From contig WRAX01000010.1 in the NCBI GenBank assembly GCA_009779935.1, positions 1 to 64,000 of the forward strand: a stretch of DNA of 64,000 bases, read 5' to 3'. Positions 53,552 to 64,000 of the stretch are shown one piece after another. The translations under genes were made by a program, and so were the position numbers. This stretch comes from Defluviitaleaceae bacterium. GTDB lineage: Bacteria > Bacillota > Clostridia > Lachnospirales > WRAX01. The notes below the pieces were generated by a model. That model was not told the DNA's origin and did not search any database. It saw nothing but the letters and a program-made list of their open reading frames with translations. The stretch's first letter is position 1, and every line of letters starts with the position of its first letter.

Positions 53552-54037
53552 ATGAAAATACTGGTTTTTAGTGACAGCCACGGCAAAACCGATTTGATGA
53601 TAGAAATTACCAAGAAGCACCAGCACCAAATTGGGGCGGTGTGCTTTTTAGGTGATGTTATGCGGGATTATGTTAAGCTGCGCAACACCTTTCCCGACCT
53701 AACAATCCACGCTGTGCCGGGTAACTGCGACCCTAAATCTACAAAAGAGCGGGTGCAGGTGGTGGAGCTTGGCGGCGCAAAAATAATGCTAACCCATGGC
53801 CATTTACACAGCGTTAAGCGGGAATACACCAAAATTGCCGCCGCCGCTACCGAGATGGGGGTGGATGCCTGCTTTTTCGGCCACAGCCACAAACCTATTA
53901 CATTTGAAAAAAACGGCATAACCTTCCTAAATCCCGGAAGCATAACAGAGCCTCGCGGGACCATGGGGAAGAGCTATGCCTTGGTAGAAATTGCAGATGG
54001 AAAGTTGCAAGAGCCACAGATTTTGGATGCGGACTAA
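53552..54037 (+). CDS. YfcE/MJ0936-type phosphodiesterase
   Basis: 161 residues. The calcineurin-like metallophosphatase motifs are complete: FSDSHGK, CFLGDVMRD, VPGNCD, MLTHGHLHS and FFGHSHKP, then the family ending LNPGSITEPRG. A cyclic or other phosphodiester is the expected substrate. AAAGGACGAAACCC precedes the ATG. The TAA stop overlaps the first base of the fourth palindromic element. Confidence 0.9.
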   Translation: MKILVFSDSHGKTDLMIEITKKHQHQIGAVCFLGDVMRDYVKLRNTFPDLTIHAVPGNCDPKSTKERVQVVELGGAKIMLTHGHLHSVKREYTKIAAAATEMGVDACFFGHSHKPITFEKNGITFLNPGSITEPRGTMGKSYALVEIADGKLQEPQILDAD

Positions 54038-54139
54038 TACCAATTCCAATTCGAAACATGGAAAAGGATATTTTGAAAATCGCAGGTTTCAGTGCGTTTT
54101 CAAAATGTGCTTTTCCGTGATTGAGAATGGAATTGGTAT
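54037..54139. repeat. 103-bp palindromic element, copy 4
   Basis: Orientation as copy 3; A flanks both ends. Its first base is the last base of the TAA stop of the phosphodiesterase gene. It also lies at the 3' end of the converging gene at 54145, so the hairpin could end both transcripts. Confidence 0.93.
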
Positions 54140-54144
54140 AAGTT

Positions 54145-54585
54145 CTAAATCTCACTATTTTCGGTTGATGCTTGGTGCAATGCAGCATTGATGGCATCTA
54201 ACAAAATTCTGCTGGTATGCAGGGTTTCCAAAGGGGCTTCTACTACCGTACTTTGGTTTGTTAGCACCTGATGGGACAAGTTGGCCATAGTAGGGCGGAT
54301 AAGGGGGTAAAAAACCTCTACCGTTTCTTCCATTTCGGAAATGGCTATGTCCAAAATCTCATCCTCGCTAACGGTGACGGATACAGTGACAGGGCGGTTG
54401 TGCAAGATGATGTAAGATGTGTATGTACCCGGTACAAAACTGCCCATTGGCCCATGGGCATCATTGCTGCCACGGGGTGATATTGCCCAAATTAAGGTGA
54501 TAAGCAGGGCGATGCCGATAATTATAAAAATCCCCGTGCGGATTATATCTTTCCTTCGTAAAACAACAAAACGTGATTTTGCCAT
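54145..54585 (-). CDS. Membrane-anchored FMN-binding-like protein
   Basis: 146 residues. A basic start (RFVVLRRKDIIR) and one membrane helix (TGIFIIIGIALLITLIWAIS) are followed by an external domain with GTYTSYIILHNRPVTVSVTV, EDEILDIAISEM, VLTNQSTVVEAPLETLHTS and ILLDAINAALHQAS. This follows the FMN_bind layout (GxY..., DGxI, Q(S)..VD.SGAT.TS..., AV..AL) but the SGAT-type flavin attachment motif is replaced by APLETLHTS, so covalent FMN is unlikely. Function unknown. Confidence 0.65.
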   Translation of the reverse strand: MAKSRFVVLRRKDIIRTGIFIIIGIALLITLIWAISPRGSNDAHGPMGSFVPGTYTSYIILHNRPVTVSVTVSEDEILDIAISEMEETVEVFYPLIRPTMANLSHQVLTNQSTVVEAPLETLHTSRILLDAINAALHQASTENSEI

Positions 54586-54679
54586 AACGGGCTGTGCCTC
54601 CTTGTTTGATTTTGGGGGTGTTTAACACATTTTATTAAACATGCACAAAAATTATACTTGCTTTGTGGGGGAAATTGTG

Positions 54680-57600
54680 ATGTTGCAATTTATTTTAGGC
54701 AAGCCGGGCACGGGCAAAACAACCCTTATCCACCAGCAAATTGCACAAATACAAGCCGAGGGCGGGGAAAATGCCCTAATTTTAATTGTACCGGAGCAAT
54801 CCTCCTTTCAAACAGAAAAGGCCTTGTTGGCGGCAACACCTTCGGGGGCAATTTCCCGTGCAAGGGTGTTGTCCTTTAACCGCCTGTCATACTATGTCTT
54901 TGGACGGGTCGGTGGAGCCCGCATGGCAATTTTAGAAAACAGCGGCAAGCATATGTTGTTGCGCAAAATTGTATCGGGATTGGACGGGAAATTGCAATAT
55001 TTCAAGTCCGCAGGGGATACAAAGGGGTTTTTGGATAGCCTTTCAACTACAATTACCGAATTTTACCAATACCATATAACCCCCCAGCAATTGGAGGAGC
55101 ATAAGAAGGGCGCAACCAAAGAAGCCCTTGCCATGAAGCTTAACGACCTGCATTTGATATACCAAGCATATCAACAGCATTTGGAGGATAATTTTATTTG
55201 TTCCGATGCTATGCTGGATATTTTGGCGGAAAAAATTCCTGATGCAGATTTTTTGCAGGGGGCAGAAATTTGGGTGGATGGCTTCAAAAGCTTCACCCCG
55301 CAGGAGAAAAAGGTGCTTTCTGCTCTGCTTTGTGTGGCATCCGGCGTAAAAATTGCGCTTACAGCACCGGGCGGGCTGCAAGATGCGCAGATGATAACCA
55401 AATTTGATGCCTACCATGAAGTGGCGGATACCATGCGTAAGCTGACGACCCTTGGGCAGCAACTTAATATACAAATGCAGACGCCACATATTTGCAAGGA
55501 ATTTTACCGCCACACAAATGCCCCCGACCTTGCTTTTTTATGCCAAAACTTTCTTGGATTTTCCAGTCGGACTTATGGGGAAGTGCCTAAAAATATCCAT
55601 ATTTTTTCGGGGGAAAATGTTTTTGATGAAATTGACCATGCCGCCCGGCTAATAACAACCCTAACCCGCCAGCGGGGCTACAAATACAGCCAAATTGCCC
55701 TTGTAGCCACAAATTTAGGGGAATATGAAAAGTTTTTGCCTGCCATATTTGCAAGGCATGGCATACCCGTTTTTGTGGATGCACGGCACAGCGCCATATC
55801 CCACCCGCTGATGGAGATGGTTTTTGCCGCCTGCGGTATAATTGCCGGCAATTGGAGCTATGAAGCGGTTTTTCGTTTACTGCGCCTGCCCATATTTACA
55901 AATCGGGATGAAATTGATTTGTTGGAAAATTATGTACTGGCCCACAACATAAGGGGCAGGGGGTGGCAGGAGTATTTTGTACGTGGTGATGAGGGTGCTT
56001 TACTTCAAATAAACACAATACGCCGTTGGGCGGTGGATATTATGCGGCCGCTAACCGATAAATTTACTCAGCGGAAAAAGTTTGCATTGGAAGAATTTGG
56101 GCGGGGTATATATGAATTTTTGATTGCAAACAACATGCCGCAAACACTGGAAAACTGGATGGACACTGCACAAATGCACGGCGACAACAAAGCCCTGCGG
56201 GAACATGAACAGGTTTGGGGCAAGCTGATGGACACCCTTGATAAAATGGTGGAAATTTTAGGAGGCCAAAAAGAAACCATTGCTGATTTTGCTAAGATTT
56301 TGGAGGCGGGCATTATGGACTTGGGGCTTGCCCCCCCTTCCATAGACCAGTTGGTGCTTGGGGACTTGCGCCGCTCCCGCTTTGGCGAGGTTAAGGCAAT
56401 GGTAATACTTGGTGCAAAAGATGGGGCTATGCCGTCCCGCCCCAATGATGCGGGGCTGTTTAGTGATGAGGATAGGGATTTTTTGGTAAACAACGGCGGC
56501 TTGACACTGGCGAAAGATACCACCGCACAGATTTGTGAAGAAGAGTTTTTGATATATACGGGCTTCTCCAAGCCCAGCCATTTCCTTGCTATTGGCTACC
56601 CCGCCGGCAATTTGGAGGGGCAGGGGGCTAACCCATCCCGACTTTTACAGCGCATCCGCGACCTTTTCCCTGGCCTGGGACAGCATGCAATGGAAATTTC
56701 CAGTCCGCAAGGGGTTTTTGGGGATATGTTGCTGGCTTTGGGTCAATCTGCCATATCCACCCGGCCTTTGCATGGGGATTTTATCCACACCTACGCCCAT
56801 TTTAGCGGTGATGAGTATTTTGGCAAAAAAATTGACAAAATGCGTGCAGGGCTTGATTTTGCTTATGATACCAAGCTTTCCACGGAATCTGTTAAGGCTT
56901 TATACCGCCCAAATGTAAAAACCAGTATTAGCAAGCTGCAACGCTATGTATCCTGTTCATTTGCGTATTTTGCAGAATATAACCTGCGGGCAAAACCCCG
57001 CAAAATACACGATGTGGCAGCGGCGGATATGGGCAATGTATACCACGATATTTTGGCAGAATTTGGGCATATACTAAAACAGCTTGGCAGCGACTGCGCA
57101 TCGGATGAAAAGCGGGTATCGGAGCTGGTAGAGCAAGTAATTGACGGGGTGCTGGACCATCCAGCAAATTATGCCCTGCGCACCAGCGGAAAACATATGC
57201 ACTTTGCCCACAAAATGCGGGAAATCAGTAAAGCATCTGCCCTTGCCCTTTCAAACCACCTTGCCCGTGGAAAGTTTGATATTGCTTATAACGAAGTGGC
57301 TTTTGGCAGCCAGCGGGATGATGGAGACATCACTATGCCCCCAATCGAAATTGAATTATCCGAAAACGCTAAGATGTTGTTGGAAGGGCGTATTGACCGG
57401 GTGGACATCAGCCAAATTGACGGGGCGGAATATGTGAAAATTATCGACTACAAGTCGGGTGCTAAAAAGTTTTCGCTGGATGATGTTTACCATGGCCTGG
57501 ACATGCAGTTGCTAATGTACCTTGGCGCATTTATCCGTCAAATGGCGGAAACGCAGGGCGAAACCGCCGCCGTTAAAACCCTGCCTGCCGCCGCCCTATA

Positions 57601-58039
57601 TTTTAACCTGCACAACCCCCTGCTAAGTTTTGATGAAAAACTAACCAACCCCGCCATGTTAAAAGATGAGCTGCTGAAAAAGTTTAGGATGAGCGGCCTT
57701 GTGCTGGATGAAGAGGCCGTACTAACCGGCCTTGACAGCAAAAACACGGTAGATATGGGCGAAAGGGTGGAAAAGGCAAAAATAACCGCCGAGGGCTTTG
57801 CCGCCCTGTTAGACCATGTAAGCCACCTTGCCAAAAAAGCCGGGCAGGATATTTTGACGGGCAAAATATCCATATATCCTTATAAGTACAGCAATAAAAG
57901 TGAGGACAAGACCCCGTGCACCTATTGCGATTACCATACAATTTGCAAATTTGATGCAGGTGCAGATGCCCACCGCAACCTGTCAAAATTAAAACGGGAA
58001 GAGGTGATGGAAAAAATATCCAACAAACGGCAAAATTAG
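54680..58039 (+). CDS. addB: Helicase-exonuclease subunit AddB
   Basis: 1119 residues; typical AddB is about 1150. Walker A LGKPGTGKTTLIHQQI at the N-terminus; VPEQSSFQTEKALL; the C-terminal nuclease region has VKIIDYKSGAKKFSLDDVYH (motif D/K) with Fe-S ligands in YVSCSFAYFAEYNLR and CTYCDYHTICKF. With AddA it resects double-strand breaks up to Chi. The addA gene, usually next, is absent: rpsU follows. The ATG was chosen over an upstream frame because the family starts at MLQFILGKPG. Confidence 0.92.
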   Translation: MLQFILGKPGTGKTTLIHQQIAQIQAEGGENALILIVPEQSSFQTEKALLAATPSGAISRARVLSFNRLSYYVFGRVGGARMAILENSGKHMLLRKIVSGLDGKLQYFKSAGDTKGFLDSLSTTITEFYQYHITPQQLEEHKKGATKEALAMKLNDLHLIYQAYQQHLEDNFICSDAMLDILAEKIPDADFLQGAEIWVDGFKSFTPQEKKVLSALLCVASGVKIALTAPGGLQDAQMITKFDAYHEVADTMRKLTTLGQQLNIQMQTPHICKEFYRHTNAPDLAFLCQNFLGFSSRTYGEVPKNIHIFSGENVFDEIDHAARLITTLTRQRGYKYSQIALVATNLGEYEKFLPAIFARHGIPVFVDARHSAISHPLMEMVFAACGIIAGNWSYEAVFRLLRLPIFTNRDEIDLLENYVLAHNIRGRGWQEYFVRGDEGALLQINTIRRWAVDIMRPLTDKFTQRKKFALEEFGRGIYEFLIANNMPQTLENWMDTAQMHGDNKALREHEQVWGKLMDTLDKMVEILGGQKETIADFAKILEAGIMDLGLAPPSIDQLVLGDLRRSRFGEVKAMVILGAKDGAMPSRPNDAGLFSDEDRDFLVNNGGLTLAKDTTAQICEEEFLIYTGFSKPSHFLAIGYPAGNLEGQGANPSRLLQRIRDLFPGLGQHAMEISSPQGVFGDMLLALGQSAISTRPLHGDFIHTYAHFSGDEYFGKKIDKMRAGLDFAYDTKLSTESVKALYRPNVKTSISKLQRYVSCSFAYFAEYNLRAKPRKIHDVAAADMGNVYHDILAEFGHILKQLGSDCASDEKRVSELVEQVIDGVLDHPANYALRTSGKHMHFAHKMREISKASALALSNHLARGKFDIAYNEVAFGSQRDDGDITMPPIEIELSENAKMLLEGRIDRVDISQIDGAEYVKIIDYKSGAKKFSLDDVYHGLDMQLLMYLGAFIRQMAETQGETAAVKTLPAAALYFNLHNPLLSFDEKLTNPAMLKDELLKKFRMSGLVLDEEAVLTGLDSKNTVDMGERVEKAKITAEGFAALLDHVSHLAKKAGQDILTGKISIYPYKYSNKSEDKTPCTYCDYHTICKFDAGADAHRNLSKLKREEVMEKISNKRQN

Positions 58040-58052
58040 ATTAAATTTTCTA

Positions 58053-58081
58053 TTGACTTTCCAGAAATTTTATTGTATAAT
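58053..58081 (+). promoter_or_regulatory. rpsU promoter
   Basis: TTGACT (58053-58058), a 17-base spacer and TATAAT (58076-58081), close to consensus, as suits a ribosomal protein gene. Confidence 0.82.
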
Positions 58082-58132
58082 TGCTTTTGTGGTGTGTGCC
58101 ACGTGGATTTAAGCACGGAGGGAGGGGAAAAA

Positions 58133-58309
58133 ATGTCAGAGGTAAGAATTAAAGACAATGAAACACTAGACTCTGCTCTTCGTCGCTTCAAAAGGGCAAC
58201 ACAAAAAGCAGGTATTTTGGGCGAGGTTCGTAAGCGCGAGCATTATGACAAGCCCAGCATCAAAAGAAAAAAGAAAATGGAAGCCGCCCGTAAGCGTAAG
58301 TACAATTAG
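58133..58309 (+). CDS. rpsU: 30S ribosomal protein S21
   Basis: 58 residues, standard length. [20 protein letters not shown], then [18 protein letters not shown] and the basic tail ARKRKYN. GGAGGGAGGGG precedes the ATG. It has its own strong promoter and a strong terminator, so it forms a single-gene unit. Confidence 0.96.
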
Positions 58310-58330
58310 GAAAATGTTTCCATAACATAA

Positions 58331-58366
58331 AAACCCCCTGCATATGGTTGCGGGGGGTTTGCTTTT
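58331..58366. terminator. Terminator between rpsU and the stalk-domain gene
   Basis: AAACCCCC (58331-58338) / GGGGGTTT (58353-58360) followed by GCTTTT; A/T flanks suggest it works on both strands for the two converging genes. Confidence 0.8.
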
Positions 58367-58372
58367 ATTATA

Positions 58373-58969
58373 TTATTGTCCAAGGGTTACATTTACGCCG
58401 GCAGGGGTAACATTGTAGCTAACAGTTCTGCCGGTTAGGTTTTGGATTGCGGTTTGAATCAATCCGGTAGCCAAAGTCAACTCGCCATAAGCGGCAGCTG
58501 CATCCAAAGGCATGCTGCGCGGGAACATGGTTGCAGGTATCATATGACGGTCGTTAATAAGGGTTGATACAAGGCGGGTGCCGGCGGCCGGGCCGTTAGC
58601 AACAACAAGCGCACCACCTTCAACACTTCTCAAATCGATGGAGAAGGTGCCGGGTTGGATAACACCTGCCAAATCAATACCTGTGCTTTCAGCAAGGCGG
58701 GCTGCAACATCTGCACCAGAAAAGCTGATGGTAATAGTTTGGGTTGCCTGATTCCAAACAACACTGCCTTGGCCTAAATAAGCTTCTGCCACACTGCGCA
58801 AGCCAAAATAGGCGTTGCCGTTGTGCACTTCGATAAATTGTGCCGCATTTGCAACACCGGCCACAATAACTTCAGTTGGTACATTAACAGTTTGGGCATA
58901 TGCCGTAACAGGGGCAGCCAGCATGGCAAGGCCCAACAAACTTGCAAGTATTCTCTTTTTCAAAAACAT
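58373..58969 (-). CDS. Secreted stalk-domain (copper amine oxidase N-like) protein
   Basis: 198 residues. A cleavable signal peptide (KKRILASLLGLAMLAAPVTAYA ends in AYA-QT) precedes a beta-rich domain with AQFIEVHNGNAYFGLRSVAE and VVWNQATQTITISFSG, then DRHMIPATMFPRSM, the pattern of the copper amine oxidase N-terminal-like (stalk) domain found on many clostridial secreted proteins. No catalytic part is attached. GGGAGG precedes the ATG. Probably an exported cell-envelope protein. Confidence 0.82.
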   Translation of the reverse strand: MFLKKRILASLLGLAMLAAPVTAYAQTVNVPTEVIVAGVANAAQFIEVHNGNAYFGLRSVAEAYLGQGSVVWNQATQTITISFSGADVAARLAESTGIDLAGVIQPGTFSIDLRSVEGGALVVANGPAAGTRLVSTLINDRHMIPATMFPRSMPLDAAAAYGELTLATGLIQTAIQNLTGRTVSYNVTPAGVNVTLGQ

Positions 58970-59038
58970 TTCCTCCCTTTATAAAAACATTATTTGCCAT
59001 CCCACCATAAGCACATAGGTGGACAACTTCTGCTACCT

Positions 59039-59067
59039 ATTATACCAAGCTTGTTACAAAAATACAA
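59039..59067 (-). promoter_or_regulatory. Promoter of the stalk-domain gene
   Basis: Minus strand TTGTAT (59062-59067), a 17-base spacer and TATAAT (59039-59044). Confidence 0.65.
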
Positions 59068-59287
59068 TACCAATTTTGAAAAAAATTTTCAAAAAAGTTA
59101 AATTTAACATTGCAATTTTGTTAAAGATATATTATAATCATATACATCAACACCATGGGCGTTTTGTGCCCCGACGATGGCGGGTCAATCTTATAACTTG
59201 CGTTTATGATGAAATGGGCGTTGCGGCGCAACAAGTTGCGTTTAATTATTTTTAACATCCGTTCACAAAGTTTGTCAAATAATAATG

Positions 59288-59316
59288 TTGATAAAACTTT
59301 GCAGATATGCTATAAT
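59288..59316 (+). promoter_or_regulatory. Promoter of the large lipoprotein gene
   Basis: TTGATA (59288-59293), a 17-base spacer and TATAAT (59311-59316), leaving a leader of about 95 bases with a small hairpin. Confidence 0.68.
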
Positions 59317-59417
59317 GTCGTATAATAAGAGTTTGGCGGGCTTTATGTTTGTCGGGGTCTTAATATAAATAAAAAAGGGCATACTTATGCCCAACATAAT
59401 TAAGGGAGGATTTCCAA

Positions 59418-61343
59418 ATGAAGAGAAAATTGCTTGGCGTTTTCTTGGCTGGAGCAATGGCCGCTGTACTTGCGGCTTGCGTGTATGATGACGCAGGCGT
59501 GGCCACAACCCCGCCAACACAAAACGAGCAACAAGCCGGTCCGGTGCTGTTCCCGGCCATCACAGGTACACAAACGATCCGAGTGTCTGTTCCTTATGGT
59601 GAAGTGAGAAATCACGATGGCTCTTTGACTGTTGGCAGACTTGAGGAGCAAGGTGGCACAATGTGGGGTCCAGAATCTGTGGACGCACTTGCCAATGCAC
59701 ATGCTTTCTCCAACCAAGTTGACAGCGGCGAAAACTTTGCCCCAATCGTGCTTGACGTTACTTTTACGCCCCATAACATTGCTGACATCCGTCTTATTTC
59801 CCATGCAGAAACTTTGGGTGTTGTAGGTGCCGGCACAAACAGCGGCGTAAACTATGTAGCAATGGTTTACCCGGCGTTGACTGACCAAATCATTTTCCAT
59901 CAGTCTACCCTTCAGCTTGATGCGTTTGCTCACGCTACCATCACCCGTAACGCTATCGTTCGTGGCGTTAACGATGCTATTGCTGAAGCCGGCGGTAACC
60001 CGAGAGAGCTTGCTCCAATCAATCAAAATGCTACTACCCCACCAGCAGGTGCCCGTTTCATACCGGGTGTTGCACACATCTATGTTCCTGCCGGTACTTA
60101 TGTAGTTATGGATAACAGCGCACCTGTTCTTGATATTCGTGAGCTTACTCCTGAACTTGCTCTTGAGCTTGGGATGAGAAATGCTGAGGGTGGTGCTGCA
60201 AATGCTGCCATCCAACGTCATGGTGTTTTGCATAACGGTTTCCGCAGACAGCCTCATCCATCAATTGAAGAGCGTCTTGGTCTTGCCACTCCACGTACAG
60301 CAAGTGAAGCTGCTCTTGCTGACACACACTACTTCCATGCAGCCAACATTGCTGATACCAATTTAACAGCTGGCGGCCAAGGTTTGGCTATGGCTCTTAA
60401 CCAAACTTTTGATTACAACCTTTCTCCTGGTGACCCCAACCCACGTGCAGGTCTTCCAAGAGGTATGTGGATGACTGTTTCCTTCGGTTTTAACACTTTC
60501 TGGATTCAAGAAAGAGGTACACGTACACAAGATGATTTCTCTGGTCTTGTAATGGGCGGACATGGCGAAACCCAAACTGGAGGTTTTGCTAACCCACACA
60601 ACATCGCTATTGGCGATGAAGGCACAAGCGTGAGCAACCATGCTCTTGGTAGCTATGCTTGGTCACAATCTGCTGTATTTATTATGAACGACCAACAATC
60701 TACTCATAACGCTGTAGATGCTCAATCTAACGCTACCATGACCGCTACTGGTGTTCGTGTTGCTCTTGAGCAAGCTATGCGTAGACATGGTGCAACTGAT
60801 GCAACCATTGCTGGCATGACTCCAATTGCTGAGCCACTATTCCGTACTGGTCGCCCGCAAGGTGGCTCCACCAATAACCAAGCTGGCGGAGTAAACGGTG
60901 GTGGTAACTCTGCAATTCTTCGTCCAGGCCTTTACACAACTGAAATTGCCCCTGGCGTAGAAGTTAGAGTTTTGCTTGACCGTGCTATTATTCGTCACTT
61001 CAGCATCGCTCAAGTTGGAGCTGGTCTAACTCTTGCTAACGATACTCAAATTCCAGGTTGGACTAATGACAACTGGGCCACTTTCAGAAACAATGTGCTG
61101 TTTGCATATGCTGAAAATCCTCCGGCCGGCACAGGTGGCGCATATCGTCTTGAGCGTTTGCAAGCCGTTGAATTGATGGAAGGCATTGCTCCTGAAACTG
61201 CACAAGCTATCCTTGACTTTGTTATTGACACCGTTGTTAATAATGACGTTACTGTTGAGCATAGCAACCTAAATCGCCTTGGTGCAAGCAGCGGTGGAAC
61301 TGGTAGAGATAGACTTCCAGCGACTCCGTCCATAAGAAGATAA
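59418..61343 (+). CDS. Large lipoprotein with FMN-binding-like segments
   Basis: 641 residues. Signal MKRKLLGVFLAGAMAAVLAA with lipobox Cys. Two regions follow the FMN_bind layout: about residues 105-195 (NIADIRLISHAETLGVVG, YPALTDQIIFHQSTLQLDAF, AHATITRNAIVRGVNDAI) and about 385-455 (QSTHNAVDAQSNATMTATGV, RVALEQAMRRHGA). The usual flavin-attachment SGAT is AHAT and SNAT. Codon choice is strongly skewed to GCT, CGT, CTT, GGT, unlike its neighbours, which suggests very high expression. GGGAGG precedes the ATG; own promoter and terminator. It may be an abundant extracytoplasmic redox or binding lipoprotein; the function is not proven. Confidence 0.78.
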   Translation: MKRKLLGVFLAGAMAAVLAACVYDDAGVATTPPTQNEQQAGPVLFPAITGTQTIRVSVPYGEVRNHDGSLTVGRLEEQGGTMWGPESVDALANAHAFSNQVDSGENFAPIVLDVTFTPHNIADIRLISHAETLGVVGAGTNSGVNYVAMVYPALTDQIIFHQSTLQLDAFAHATITRNAIVRGVNDAIAEAGGNPRELAPINQNATTPPAGARFIPGVAHIYVPAGTYVVMDNSAPVLDIRELTPELALELGMRNAEGGAANAAIQRHGVLHNGFRRQPHPSIEERLGLATPRTASEAALADTHYFHAANIADTNLTAGGQGLAMALNQTFDYNLSPGDPNPRAGLPRGMWMTVSFGFNTFWIQERGTRTQDDFSGLVMGGHGETQTGGFANPHNIAIGDEGTSVSNHALGSYAWSQSAVFIMNDQQSTHNAVDAQSNATMTATGVRVALEQAMRRHGATDATIAGMTPIAEPLFRTGRPQGGSTNNQAGGVNGGGNSAILRPGLYTTEIAPGVEVRVLLDRAIIRHFSIAQVGAGLTLANDTQIPGWTNDNWATFRNNVLFAYAENPPAGTGGAYRLERLQAVELMEGIAPETAQAILDFVIDTVVNNDVTVEHSNLNRLGASSGGTGRDRLPATPSIRR

Positions 61344-61368
61344 TAAACCGCATCAATAATAGCAATTA

Positions 61369-61399
61369 AAAAAGAGCAGCCATAACGGTTGCTCTTTTT
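61369..61399. terminator. Bidirectional terminator after the large lipoprotein gene
   Basis: AAAAAGAGCA (61369-61378) / TGCTCTTTTT (61390-61399) with an 11-base loop. The stop of the converging ABC ATPase gene overlaps its end. Confidence 0.85.
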
Positions 61400-61973
61400 A
61401 TATGTTTATGGTGGTGGCACCAAAAAAATCAGCTTCGGCAGGGTCGTGGGTGACAAGGACTAAGGTTTTATTTTGGGTGCGGGTTTTAACAAGTTCCATT
61501 ATTTGGGGTTTTAGGGCGGCATCCAGCCCTTTGAAGGGCTCGTCTAATATTAGCAGGTCAAAATCCACCATTAGGGCACGGCAAAGGGCAAGCCGCCTTT
61601 TCATGCCGCCGCTGTACTGGGCGGTTTTTTTGTGGATGTCTTGCCCAAGGCCGGCCTGTGCCATCAGGTCAATGGCAACCTGGGCATGGTTTTTTGCCCG
61701 TTTTAAGGGAAAAAGTACATTTGCCAAACCACTTTTGTAAGGTAACAACCTATCCTCCTGGAAAACCATGGAAATTTGCAAACCGTCCCGCTTGATGATG
61801 TTGCCTGTATCAGGCTGGGTGAAGCCGCAAAGCATATTTATTAGCGTAGTTTTACCCTTACCCGACGGCCCCATGATGGCCAGCTTTGCGCCGTCTTCTA
61901 TATCAAGGCTAAAGCCTGCAAAAATCACATTTTCGCTAAAATTTTTGTGTATATTTGTTATTTGGATTGCCAT
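61398..61973 (-). CDS. ABC importer ATP-binding protein (SsuB/TauB-like)
   Basis: 191 residues from the ATG after GAGGAGGG. Walker A AIMGPSGKGKTTLINML, Q-loop SMVFQEDRLLPYKS, signature YSGGMKRRLALCRAL, Walker B LLILDEPFKGLDAAL and switch VTHDPAEADF. The short form is typical of the nitrate/sulfonate/taurine/pyrimidine-precursor importers. It overlaps the permease gene by 16 bases. Confidence 0.9.
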   Translation of the reverse strand: MAIQITNIHKNFSENVIFAGFSLDIEDGAKLAIMGPSGKGKTTLINMLCGFTQPDTGNIIKRDGLQISMVFQEDRLLPYKSGLANVLFPLKRAKNHAQVAIDLMAQAGLGQDIHKKTAQYSGGMKRRLALCRALMVDFDLLILDEPFKGLDAALKPQIMELVKTRTQNKTLVLVTHDPAEADFFGATTINI

Positions 61974-62713
61974 GTGCCAACCCTCCTCAACAACAGCGAA
62001 AACGCTTTTTCGATAATATAACCCAGCAATACAATGGTTATTGTCCAAGCCATGGCATCTTCCATCATTAAAAAATTGCGGGCGGTGTGTAGGTTAAAGC
62101 CGATGCTGTCCCGCACAAACCCAATAAGCTCTGCCGTAACCCCTGCTTTGAAGGCGAAACCAAGCCCTGATGCGGCTGCGGAAAAAACATAAGGCAGGGC
62201 ATGTGGCAGATGGATGTTGGCGGCAGTTTTTAAGGGCGGCACACGAAGGATTTTGGCCATTTCCAGCAATTTAGTGTCCACATTGCTAAGCCCTTCGTAG
62301 GTATTAAAAAACACAATGGGCAAAACCGTCACAAACGCGATAAAAACGGACAAATTCTCCCTGGACACCCAAAAAAGAGCAAGCACAGTAAATGATACAA
62401 TTGGTACAGATTTCATCACATTAACAAGGGGTATAAAAAGGGTGTAAAGCAAGGGAATGCGGTAGCATATCCCGGCCAAAACCGCCCCGACCGCCATGGA
62501 CAGCACAAAGCCAAAAACCACCCGCCCAAGTGAAAACCAAACAGAAAGCCAAAAAACCCCTTCGCCTGCAAGCTCCCAAAGCCGTGTAAAAGCAGCAATG
62601 GGAGAGATAAGGACTAAGGGATTGCCAATAAAATGACTTGCCACCTGCCAAACGGCTATCCAAAAGGCGATGGCAGCGGCGTTTTTAGCGGTTTTGATTA
62701 AAGTGTTTTTCAT
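61958..62713 (-). CDS. ABC importer permease (SsuC/TauC-like)
   Basis: 251 residues, about six helices. The EAA loop is at LLEMAKILRVPPLKTAANIH with LPHALPYVFSAAASGLGFAF after it. A binding-protein-dependent permease working with the ATPase downstream and the solute-binding protein upstream. AAGGAAAA precedes the ATG; its start overlaps the preceding gene by 4 bases. Confidence 0.9.
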   Translation of the reverse strand: MKNTLIKTAKNAAAIAFWIAVWQVASHFIGNPLVLISPIAAFTRLWELAGEGVFWLSVWFSLGRVVFGFVLSMAVGAVLAGICYRIPLLYTLFIPLVNVMKSVPIVSFTVLALFWVSRENLSVFIAFVTVLPIVFFNTYEGLSNVDTKLLEMAKILRVPPLKTAANIHLPHALPYVFSAAASGLGFAFKAGVTAELIGFVRDSIGFNLHTARNFLMMEDAMAWTITIVLLGYIIEKAFSLLLRRVGTWQSK

Positions 62714-63303
62714 AGATTTTCCTTAAAATGCTTAAATGACAAAATGCCGATGGGCGCAAAGTAGGCACACCAAACCAATAAAACTATTGTACCAATAAAA
62801 TCTGCACCCTCCATTGTGGTGAAAACGCCGGAAATTGGCATCACAAGCCCGCTGATAAAGAAGATGCCGTGTATCATCAACAGGCACTTTAATACCTTGT
62901 CTGCCTTAGTTTTTGGGGTTATGGTAAGCCCCAAAAAGAATGTGGAAAGGCTCATCACACCATAACCCAGCAGGTTAAGGTTAAAAAACAGCCCAAACGC
63001 TTGATAATCAAGCAAGGCGGCGGCTTGGTTGGTTAAGGTTTCGTTGCGTAAGGTGGTTAGCTGGGCAAAGTAAATTATTAATATAAAGGTGACATAAACT
63101 GCCGCAAATGCCACGGCGGTTTTGCCTGCCGCCCTTGCCCTGCTCCGCTCTGCAAAAGCACAGGCGAGGGGCAAAAAGCTAAGGGATATAAACATACTTG
63201 CTAAGTACCCACCAAAATCAAAACCAAAAATCATTGATGCGGCGAATGCCATAACGGCAAAAGTGTTGGCTGCCCCGCTATACATTCCAATCTTTTTGTC
63301 CAT
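62710..63303 (-). CDS. Six-helix membrane protein inside the ABC importer operon
   Basis: 197 residues from the ATG after GGAGGAGC; an in-frame upstream stretch is read through a GTAGGG palindrome and is rejected. Six hydrophobic segments (for example AANTFAVMAFAASMIFGFDF, LASMFISLSFLPLACAFA, AFAAVYVTFILIIYFAQL). No transport motif is visible. It lies between the solute-binding and permease genes with overlap on the permease side, so it is probably part of the system or of its regulation. Family unknown to me. Confidence 0.7.
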   Translation of the reverse strand: MDKKIGMYSGAANTFAVMAFAASMIFGFDFGGYLASMFISLSFLPLACAFAERSRARAAGKTAVAFAAVYVTFILIIYFAQLTTLRNETLTNQAAALLDYQAFGLFFNLNLLGYGVMSLSTFFLGLTITPKTKADKVLKCLLMIHGIFFISGLVMPISGVFTTMEGADFIGTIVLLVWCAYFAPIGILSFKHFKENL

Positions 63304-63316
63304 CGCTCCTCCGATT

Positions 63317-63344
63317 AAGGGGTGGGGGCAAGCCCCCACCCTAC
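63317..63344. repeat. GTAGGG-family palindrome in the ABC importer operon
   Basis: GGGTGGGGGC-AA-GCCCCCACCCTAC; the 22-base core is identical to the copy at 30939-30960. On the minus strand it begins 2 bases after the TAA stop of the solute-binding protein gene. Confidence 0.8.
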
Positions 63345-63345
63345 A

Positions 63346-64000
63346 TTAAGGTCTATGGAAAAAGCCATCAGACGGCAGTGTGCCGCCCACGGATTGGGGC
63401 AGCTGGCTGTAAAGCACGGTAAGATAGCCCATGATATAACTTTCCATTTCACTACCGGCGATAAACACTTGGTTGGTGCGGGGTATGGCTTGCATGGCAA
63501 TGTTTGGGTTGGGGATAATGCCAAATTCAACTGCCAAATCTGCCGTTTCTATCACATTTTGCTGTGCAAACTGGATTGACAAGTCAAAGTCGTTTAAGAA
63601 ATTTGCAACCGCTTGGGGGTTTTCATCCAAAAAGGCATTGCGTGCCACAATTGCTGTCATCACAAGGCCTGTATCTGCCACCTTACCCCATTCTTCTGTT
63701 AAATCCAGGGCGTGGGACACATGGTCGTTTTGCATAAGCACGGTTGTTGCAAAAGGCTCGGGCAATAGAGCTATTTCTGCCGCGCCCTGCGCAAGAAGTG
63801 CTGCAATTTGCGGCTGCTCTCCATGAAAGTCCAAAAACACATCCACATTGGGGGTTAAGCCGTTTTGTGTTAGCACATAATTAAGCACAAATTCGGGTGC
63901 CGCCCCCATGCCGGACAAGTGCACGGTGCGCCCACGCAAATCCTCAATAGATGCAATTTCGCCTGTTGTGTCCAAAATATGCAAAACCCCCATGGTGCTA
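63346..64000 (-). CDS. ABC importer solute-binding protein (NMT1-like), partial
   Basis: The C-terminal 218 or so residues; the start is beyond the window. It has DLRGRTVHLSGMGAAPEFVL, LLAQGAAEIALLPEPFATTV, TGLVMTAIVARNAFLDENPQ and VANFLNDFDLSIQFAQQN, the pattern of NMT1/THI5-like and sulfonate-binding proteins. An extracytoplasmic lipoprotein is expected. The ligand cannot be told; nitrogen/sulfur organics or thiamine precursors are all possible. Confidence 0.82.
   Translation of the reverse strand, partial: STMGVLHILDTTGEIASIEDLRGRTVHLSGMGAAPEFVLNYVLTQNGLTPNVDVFLDFHGEQPQIAALLAQGAAEIALLPEPFATTVLMQNDHVSHALDLTEEWGKVADTGLVMTAIVARNAFLDENPQAVANFLNDFDLSIQFAQQNVIETADLAVEFGIIPNPNIAMQAIPRTNQVFIAGSEMESYIMGYLTVLYSQLPQSVGGTLPSDGFFHRP

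Follow-up and report, generated by a model that had tools for sequence, protein, structure and literature searches.

Does a lipoprotein whose flavin-attachment motifs have lost their glycine still carry flavin? The question is raised by a 641-residue protein encoded at 59418..61343 of the window, by which we mean the entire 64,000-nucleotide stretch of Defluviitaleaceae bacterium DNA that was analyzed (contig WRAX01000010.1, assembly GCA_009779935.1). A sequence-only reading of this DNA had described a highly expressed lipoprotein with two FMN_bind-like repeats that carry AHAT and SNAT at the ApbE target site, and had offered two roles for it, an abundant extracellular flavoprotein or a former flavoprotein since turned to binding. 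Judging from the sequence and its relatives, we consider it fairly probable that the protein is an abundant electron carrier of the cell surface, flavinylated at T174 and probably at T440, in which a third flavin domain has been retired. Standard motif searches would miss such a flavoprotein, with its Gly lost and its flavin-holding Thr kept.

The gene and its FMN_bind domains

The open reading frame starts with ATG, and its first 20 residues (59418..59477; all coordinates of this gene are on the forward strand) form a putative lipoprotein signal peptide. We read the lipobox (LAAC, within ...VLAAC) by eye and on this basis predict lipidation at Cys21 (59478-59480), which is invariant in alignment A1. 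The earlier description of a lipoprotein is borne out, and the predicted lipobox supplies the signal peptide and lipidation site expected of an extracytosolic multi-flavinylated protein. Upstream lies a promoter-like site, TTGATA-17 nt-TATAAT with an extended -10 (TG), at 59288..59316, which matches the consensus at 11 of 12 positions and is the best of eight such sites in 58200-61700; because shuffled sequences yield 5.6 (sd 2.3), it counts as a consensus match only. Sequences upstream of both same-genus orthologues align no farther than the Shine-Dalgarno stretch, so that consensus is the whole of the promoter's support. That stretch, AAGGGAGGA, is conserved in both, and the Shine-Dalgarno sequence GGGAGG occupies 59404..59409. 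A hairpin in the 5' untranslated region (GGGCAT-4 nt loop-ATGCCC, 59377..59392, its stem listed on the reverse strand) could not be aligned in the same-genus upstream regions, and its meaning is uncertain. Downstream lies an intrinsic-terminator-like hairpin of 13 pairs (61369..61399); it and the promoter-like site, each a consensus match only, bracket a single-gene unit. An Rfam search of 54000-64000 returned nothing near the gathering score, indicating no known riboswitch there.

Pfam FMN_bind (PF04205) matches the protein in two stretches with 49 bits (E 9.5e-13) against a gathering cut-off of 22, which places it in the family and gives it more than one FMN_bind domain, as expected of extracytosolic multi-flavinylated proteins. 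Searched one domain at a time, domain 1 scores 38.1 bits, above the cut-off, and domain 2 scores 19.9 bits, just below. Domain 1 (residues 49-204, 59562..60029; alignment A4) contains an inserted loop, and domain 2 (residues 346-464, 60453..60809; second Pfam stretch and alignment A3) contains inserted loops. The two motifs named earlier are present letter for letter: AHAT at residues 171-174 (59928..59939) and SNAT at residues 437-440 (60726..60737), or in full DAFAHAT (A171-H172-A173-T174) and DAQSNAT (S437-N438-A439-T440), each with its acceptor Thr six residues past an Asp (D168 for T174, D434 for T440). Relative to the canonical ApbE-substrate motif, Dxx[S/T]GA[S/T], the Gly is replaced in both domains and the S/T at -3 is replaced as well in domain 1, so the protein is not classed as a canonical ApbE substrate. 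The acceptor Ser/Thr of such a substrate is present at T174 and T440 and lost in domain 3.

The two repeats of the sequence-only reading are real, but a third, degenerate FMN_bind domain had been missed. It spans residues 499-612 (60912..61253), aligns with the canonical third domains of nine relatives, and carries MEGIAPETAQ (61176..61205) in place of the relatives' SGATxSxxAI (alignment A3); in this region the family profile matches CbFMN4 domain 1 with E 4.1e-10. The third domain has a canonical GAT in nine of the 16 proteins of A3 and has lost the motif in the other seven, the window protein included. From the canonical GAT of these nine we infer that the ancestor probably carried three flavin domains, of which domain 3, its acceptor threonine gone, appears retired in the window protein. 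Elsewhere in the window, a 146-residue single-pass membrane protein (54145-54585, reverse strand) is FMN_bind-like, with EAPLETL at the motif site, no acceptor Thr, and a Pfam FMN_bind match of just E 0.18.

Relatives, motif variation and fold

Homologues occur in 6 of 16 genomes of the same family and in 16 of 295 genomes sampled across the order, the own genome being counted in both. Fourteen homologous loci come with organism names, 13 of which are isolates of the form Lab288P1, Co191P1, Th196P1, Nt197P1, Mp193P1, or Nc150P1; two of the 14 (L036 and L038) coincide in coordinates with contigs of the same-genus genomes G009 and G010. A passage of PMC7024585 lists most of these sample codes (Mp193 is absent from it) for higher termites, describes the P1 gut region as highly alkaline, and derives 53 Defluviitaleaceae genomes (79%) from P1. 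The P1 gut region of higher termites is the main source of the relatives, and kinship with them suggests a termite origin for the window genome. Within the genus, identity is 84-87% over the full length, and among viral contigs we found one pattern match and no relative.

In alignment A3, which comprises the window protein and 15 relatives, T174 and T440 are present in 16 of 16 proteins, and H129 of the SHAET element (residues 128-132, 59799..59813) and T176, a second flavin-contacting hydroxyl, are likewise invariant. The motif Gly varies: position 172 is Gly in 12 proteins and His in 4, and position 438 is Gly in 11, Asn in 4, and Ser in 1. A profile search of the collected loci returned 108 domain matches, of which one without letters at the motif was dropped. 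The acceptor Thr is present in 106 of the other 107, a tally that counts related sequences, not independent events, and whose profile, built from motif-bearing domains, favors domains that keep the motif and mostly leaves out degenerate third domains. At -2 these 107 domains have Gly (87), Asn (6), His (4), Ser (4), Asp (3), Phe (1), Ala (1), or Glu (1). Thr is retained in 19 of the 20 non-Gly domains, and the exception, which is also the one with Glu, is the short window protein at 54145-54585. Paralogues in the own genome with altered motifs are a contig 19 lipoprotein, whose first domain has VDAT, and RnfG, whose second domain has SFAT and whose first site is the canonical SGAT. A four-domain FMN_bind lipoprotein of a termite-gut relative (L046:424-1653, reverse strand) has TGAT, TNAT, TDAT, and TDAT, a further case of a relaxed glycine with Thr retained. 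Adjoining a relative of the FMN lipoprotein, L019:3581-4471 encodes a 296-residue lipoprotein with two near-identical repeats, each containing a GRAT stretch that resembles the end of FMN_bind.

Asn, Asp, His, and Ser accept the left-handed backbone angles typical of glycine, and these four residues make up most of the Gly replacements in the 107-domain tally. In the holo crystal structure of SaFMN3-D2, as described in an excerpt of PMC10339131, the backbone amide of the motif Gly contacts the FMN phosphate. Together, these observations suggest that the motif Gly has a backbone role in which His, Asn, Asp, or Ser may replace it, which would leave the Gly free to vary and the Thr not. A search of titles and abstracts in the open-access literature found nothing on His or Asn in the ApbE motif or on flavinylated termite-gut proteins.

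Selection differs among the three domains, with dN/dS values (Nei-Gojobori, three within-genus pairs) of 0.014-0.040 for domain 1, 0.105-0.151 for domain 2, and 0.213-0.266 for domain 3. The domain with the oddest motif, domain 1, is the most constrained segment and under the strongest purifying selection. A structure model of the full-length protein was too poor for a structure search (mean pLDDT 44). Domain 1 was modeled with 25 aligned domains, canonical relatives among them (mean pLDDT 63, core ~80), giving strands at model residues 4-10, 62-68, and 73-80 and helices at 98-113 and 126-142; the acceptor T174, model residue 126, starts the last helix. This model matches CbFMN4-D1 (8p2b) with Z 11.7 and an rmsd of 1.6 Å over 83 residues, SaFMN3-D2 with Z 9.7, CPE2226 and RnfG with Z 7.3-7.8 (RnfG 7.3), and NqrC with Z 5.4. 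A Foldseek search with the domain 1 model gave no match at E <= 0.001 (best E 0.0067). Compared with solved structures, the domain 1 sequence alone gave weak matches (E 0.12 and 0.25), although the family profile did match, and the domain 2 sequence alone gave no informative match (best E 1.2). We have moderate confidence that the fold predicted for domain 1 corresponds to that of crystal structures with covalent FMN; it is an FMN_bind fold, as the sequence-only reading had supposed, and no unrelated fold was seen. In CbFMN4-D1, Thr37 and Ser69 contact the flavin ring (an excerpt of PMC10339131), and these residues and the acceptor Thr67 align with T132, T176, and T174, respectively. Domain 2 retains HGET (382-385) and T440/T442, and domain 3 lacks both an HGET-like element and the Thr pair in A3. 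The flavin-contacting residues are kept in domains 1 and 2 and gone from domain 3.

Codon usage and rival explanations

The codon bias reported earlier is confirmed and is extreme. The sampling-corrected divergence of the gene from mean window usage, 0.298 nats/codon, exceeds that of all other genes among the 50 in the window (the second-highest being 0.127) and compares with 0.193 for EF-Tu, 0.066 for EF-G, and 0.041 for 12 ribosomal genes. The direction of this deviation correlates with that of EF-Tu (r 0.83) and of ribosomal genes (0.72), compared with a mean r of 0.08 (sd 0.20) to EF-Tu for the other 49 window genes. A codon adaptation index with a ribosomal reference does not single out the gene (0.699, rank 24 of 50); with EF-Tu, EF-G, and GAPDH as the reference it ranks second of 50. 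The EF-Tu-like codon use, together with the putative promoter, Shine-Dalgarno sequence, and terminator, makes high expression likely. Divergently transcribed from the gene is a 198-residue secreted protein (58373-58969, reverse strand) with a weak, below-cut-off match to Cu_amine_oxidN1 and no lysine past its signal. Its codon use is second in the window in resemblance to EF-Tu (r 0.58), and proteins like it adjoin FMN lipoprotein genes in L036 and L040.

Recent horizontal transfer could also make codon usage strongly unlike that of the neighbors, but the deviation points to EF-Tu, the two same-genus orthologues and a relative in G012 share the bias against their own neighbors, and the 84-87% identity within the genus extends over the full length; we regard transfer in place of high expression as highly improbable. 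A more serious objection concerns the flavin itself. The change from Gly to His or Asn might block ApbE, leaving an abundant structural or ligand-binding coat, for which EF-Tu-like codon use would be fitting, and the threonines could be conserved because they cap the second helix, not because they hold flavin. Loss of the domain 3 acceptor in seven of 16 proteins demonstrates that such loss occurs in the lineage, and an excerpt of PMC4348036 reports that apo-NqrC, a related protein, has very low affinity for free FMN, and a domain left unmodified would accordingly hold no flavin. The same weak binding also implies, however, that a domain without the ester is probably empty and has little reason to keep the residues that contact the ring. 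Yet T176 is as invariant as the acceptors, domain 1 is the segment most strongly held by selection, and the loss in domain 3 removes the whole GAT whereas domains 1 and 2 change mainly the Gly. We therefore consider complete retirement unlikely, and the proposal of a former flavoprotein now used for binding appears to apply to domain 3 only.

A compromise would have one of domains 1 and 2 flavinylated and the other docking a partner or holding free flavin. Domain 2 is the less constrained of the two, falls below the Pfam cut-off on its own, and has the motif GNST in one relative, but its T440 is as fully conserved as T174, and we give this arrangement little credence. For T174 itself, we judge covalent flavin distinctly probable. 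In one test protein, as summarized in an excerpt of PMC12052999 citing Bertsova 2019, changing the Thr to Ala left no flavinylation, Gly to Ala gave ~50%, and Asp to Ala had little effect. We found no tests of His or Asn at the motif Gly position, and both residues are larger than Ala. The abundant extracellular flavoprotein envisaged by the sequence-only reading is supported, for domains 1 and 2, by the fully conserved Thr, the predicted fold of domain 1, the EF-Tu-like codons, and an ApbE encoded in the same genome.

Partners, lysine and known systems

As the sequence-only reading had suggested looking for, the genome encodes ApbE, in one copy (contig 23; 199.2 bits, E 7e-59); across 24 genomes, a single copy is the rule (20 genomes), with two copies in one genome and no match at threshold in three. 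The window gene is solitary, lying between the secreted 198-residue protein and an ABC transporter, and adjoins neither apbE nor a known electron-transfer gene in its own genome. Among ten chosen neighbor proteins tested in relatives, the homologue adjoins NDH-2 in L046 and L047 and is near ApbE and Hpre_diP_synt_I in L043 and L045. A relative's NDH-2, used as a single query with no positive control, had no match in the own genome, and an Hpre_diP_synt_I-type membrane protein, of a family not exclusive to flavin-based extracellular electron transfer, is present on contig 11. Rnf genes with a two-domain RnfG lie on contig 20 (L010:5493-14099), preceded by genes that we take, by eye, to encode an NrfA-like multiheme lipoprotein and ResB/ResC-like proteins. 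The pair glgC-glgD follows apbE in the own genome (L013:5052-8645) and the FMN lipoprotein gene in both same-genus genomes (L036:2654-7126; L038:4001-8749), which suggests a rearrangement between the two flavinylation genes.

Lysine is absent from the 621-residue mature chain of the window protein, which has 36 arginines and a single cysteine, the lipidated Cys21. Of 17 multi-FMN proteins of the group, 12 have no lysine past residue 28 and the others have 1-3. The own RnfG has none in 321 residues; RnfG-like proteins elsewhere in the order, represented by 25 other genomes after filtering 30 loci by length and motif (25 retained), have means of 8.0% Lys and 1.1% Arg. ApbE averages 1.07% lysine in 15 homologue-bearing genomes and 7.83% in 24 sequences from other genomes of the order, after exclusion of a short fragment and of a sequence interrupted by internal stops (Mann-Whitney p 2.6e-7, a statistic that ignores relatedness). 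It is also low in six same-family genomes without a homologue (mean 1.92%), so the trait is broader than the 641-residue protein. In stretches of the own genome, 13 exported proteins average 0.9% Lys versus 6.5% in 81 cytosolic-like proteins, by a home-made signal-peptide rule. Nearly lysine-free, arginine-rich exported proteins are encoded at 59418-61343 of the window, L010:11497-12567, and L013:5052-6128 and in L036-L049 and L092-L111; same-order relatives of these families have ~8% lysine. Arginine stays charged at pH 10-12 and reacts with quinones less readily than lysine. Low lysine may be an adaptation to gut fluid that is alkaline and rich in quinones, and titles and abstracts in the open-access literature yielded nothing on lysine-free exported proteins of alkaline-gut bacteria. 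These proteins are a more surprising by-product than the relaxed-motif flavoprotein, and their near-absent lysine is a clean, testable signature of habitat.

In the mechanism we propose for the flavin-bearing lipoprotein, three FMN_bind domains would have been inherited, as the relatives indicate. Domains 1 and 2 retain the acceptors T174 and T440 and the ring-touching residues, with the motif Gly alone of these elements changed to His or Asn. The single ApbE, shared with the canonical SGAT site of RnfG, would most likely esterify FMN to T174 and probably to T440, perhaps with lower efficiency offset by the quantity of protein, and domain 3 would persist as a spacer or binding module. Electrons might then pass from the Rnf complex, with its two-domain RnfG, to the lipoprotein flavins and on to an extracellular acceptor, a path suggested by the family context in an excerpt of PMC8238504. 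Should T174 be flavinylated, ApbE would accept a broader motif than that on which counts of flavinylated proteins rest, and residues compatible with unusual backbone angles could stand in for the motif Gly. The gene would be one of the most highly expressed in an uncultured gut lineage, and such expression would suggest that extracellular electron transfer is among the central activities of the alkaline hindgut. A broader hypothesis, which we advance tentatively as a possibility, is that ApbE of this alkaline higher-termite-gut lineage tolerates D-x-x-x-[G/N/H/D/S]-A-T, so that motif-based surveys undercount, and that the exported redox chain (multi-FMN lipoproteins, RnfG, and ApbE) was rebuilt with almost no lysine to let its most abundant member work at very high pH amid amine-reactive quinones.

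Known multi-repeat flavoproteins have canonical GAT motifs, near-identical repeats, and proven covalent FMN, whereas the window protein has divergent domains with long insertions, a replaced motif Gly, and a third domain without an acceptor. PplA of Listeria is a surface lipoprotein with FMN domains that acts in flavin-based extracellular electron transfer. The likely role of the window protein, outward passage of electrons, is similar, and relatives' loci adjoin NDH-2 or lie near ApbE and Hpre_diP_synt_I; unlike the PplA system, the gene set of the own genome is unclustered, and NDH-2 was without a match in the search described above. With RnfG and NqrC the protein shares the FMN_bind fold and a weak NCBIfam rnfG match (20.1 bits), but it is a three-domain lipoprotein and not an Rnf subunit; assignment to the RnfG subfamily (TIGR01947) was rejected at a cut-off of 102. 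From the multi-flavinylated proteins of Meheust et al. 2021, as presented in an excerpt of PMC8238504, it differs in a motif outside [S/T]GA[S/T] and in having no adjoining flavinylation gene in its own genome. It resembles them in having multiple FMN_bind domains that follow a lipobox, in its Gram-positive kinship, and in the two-domain RnfG of the same genome, as described there.
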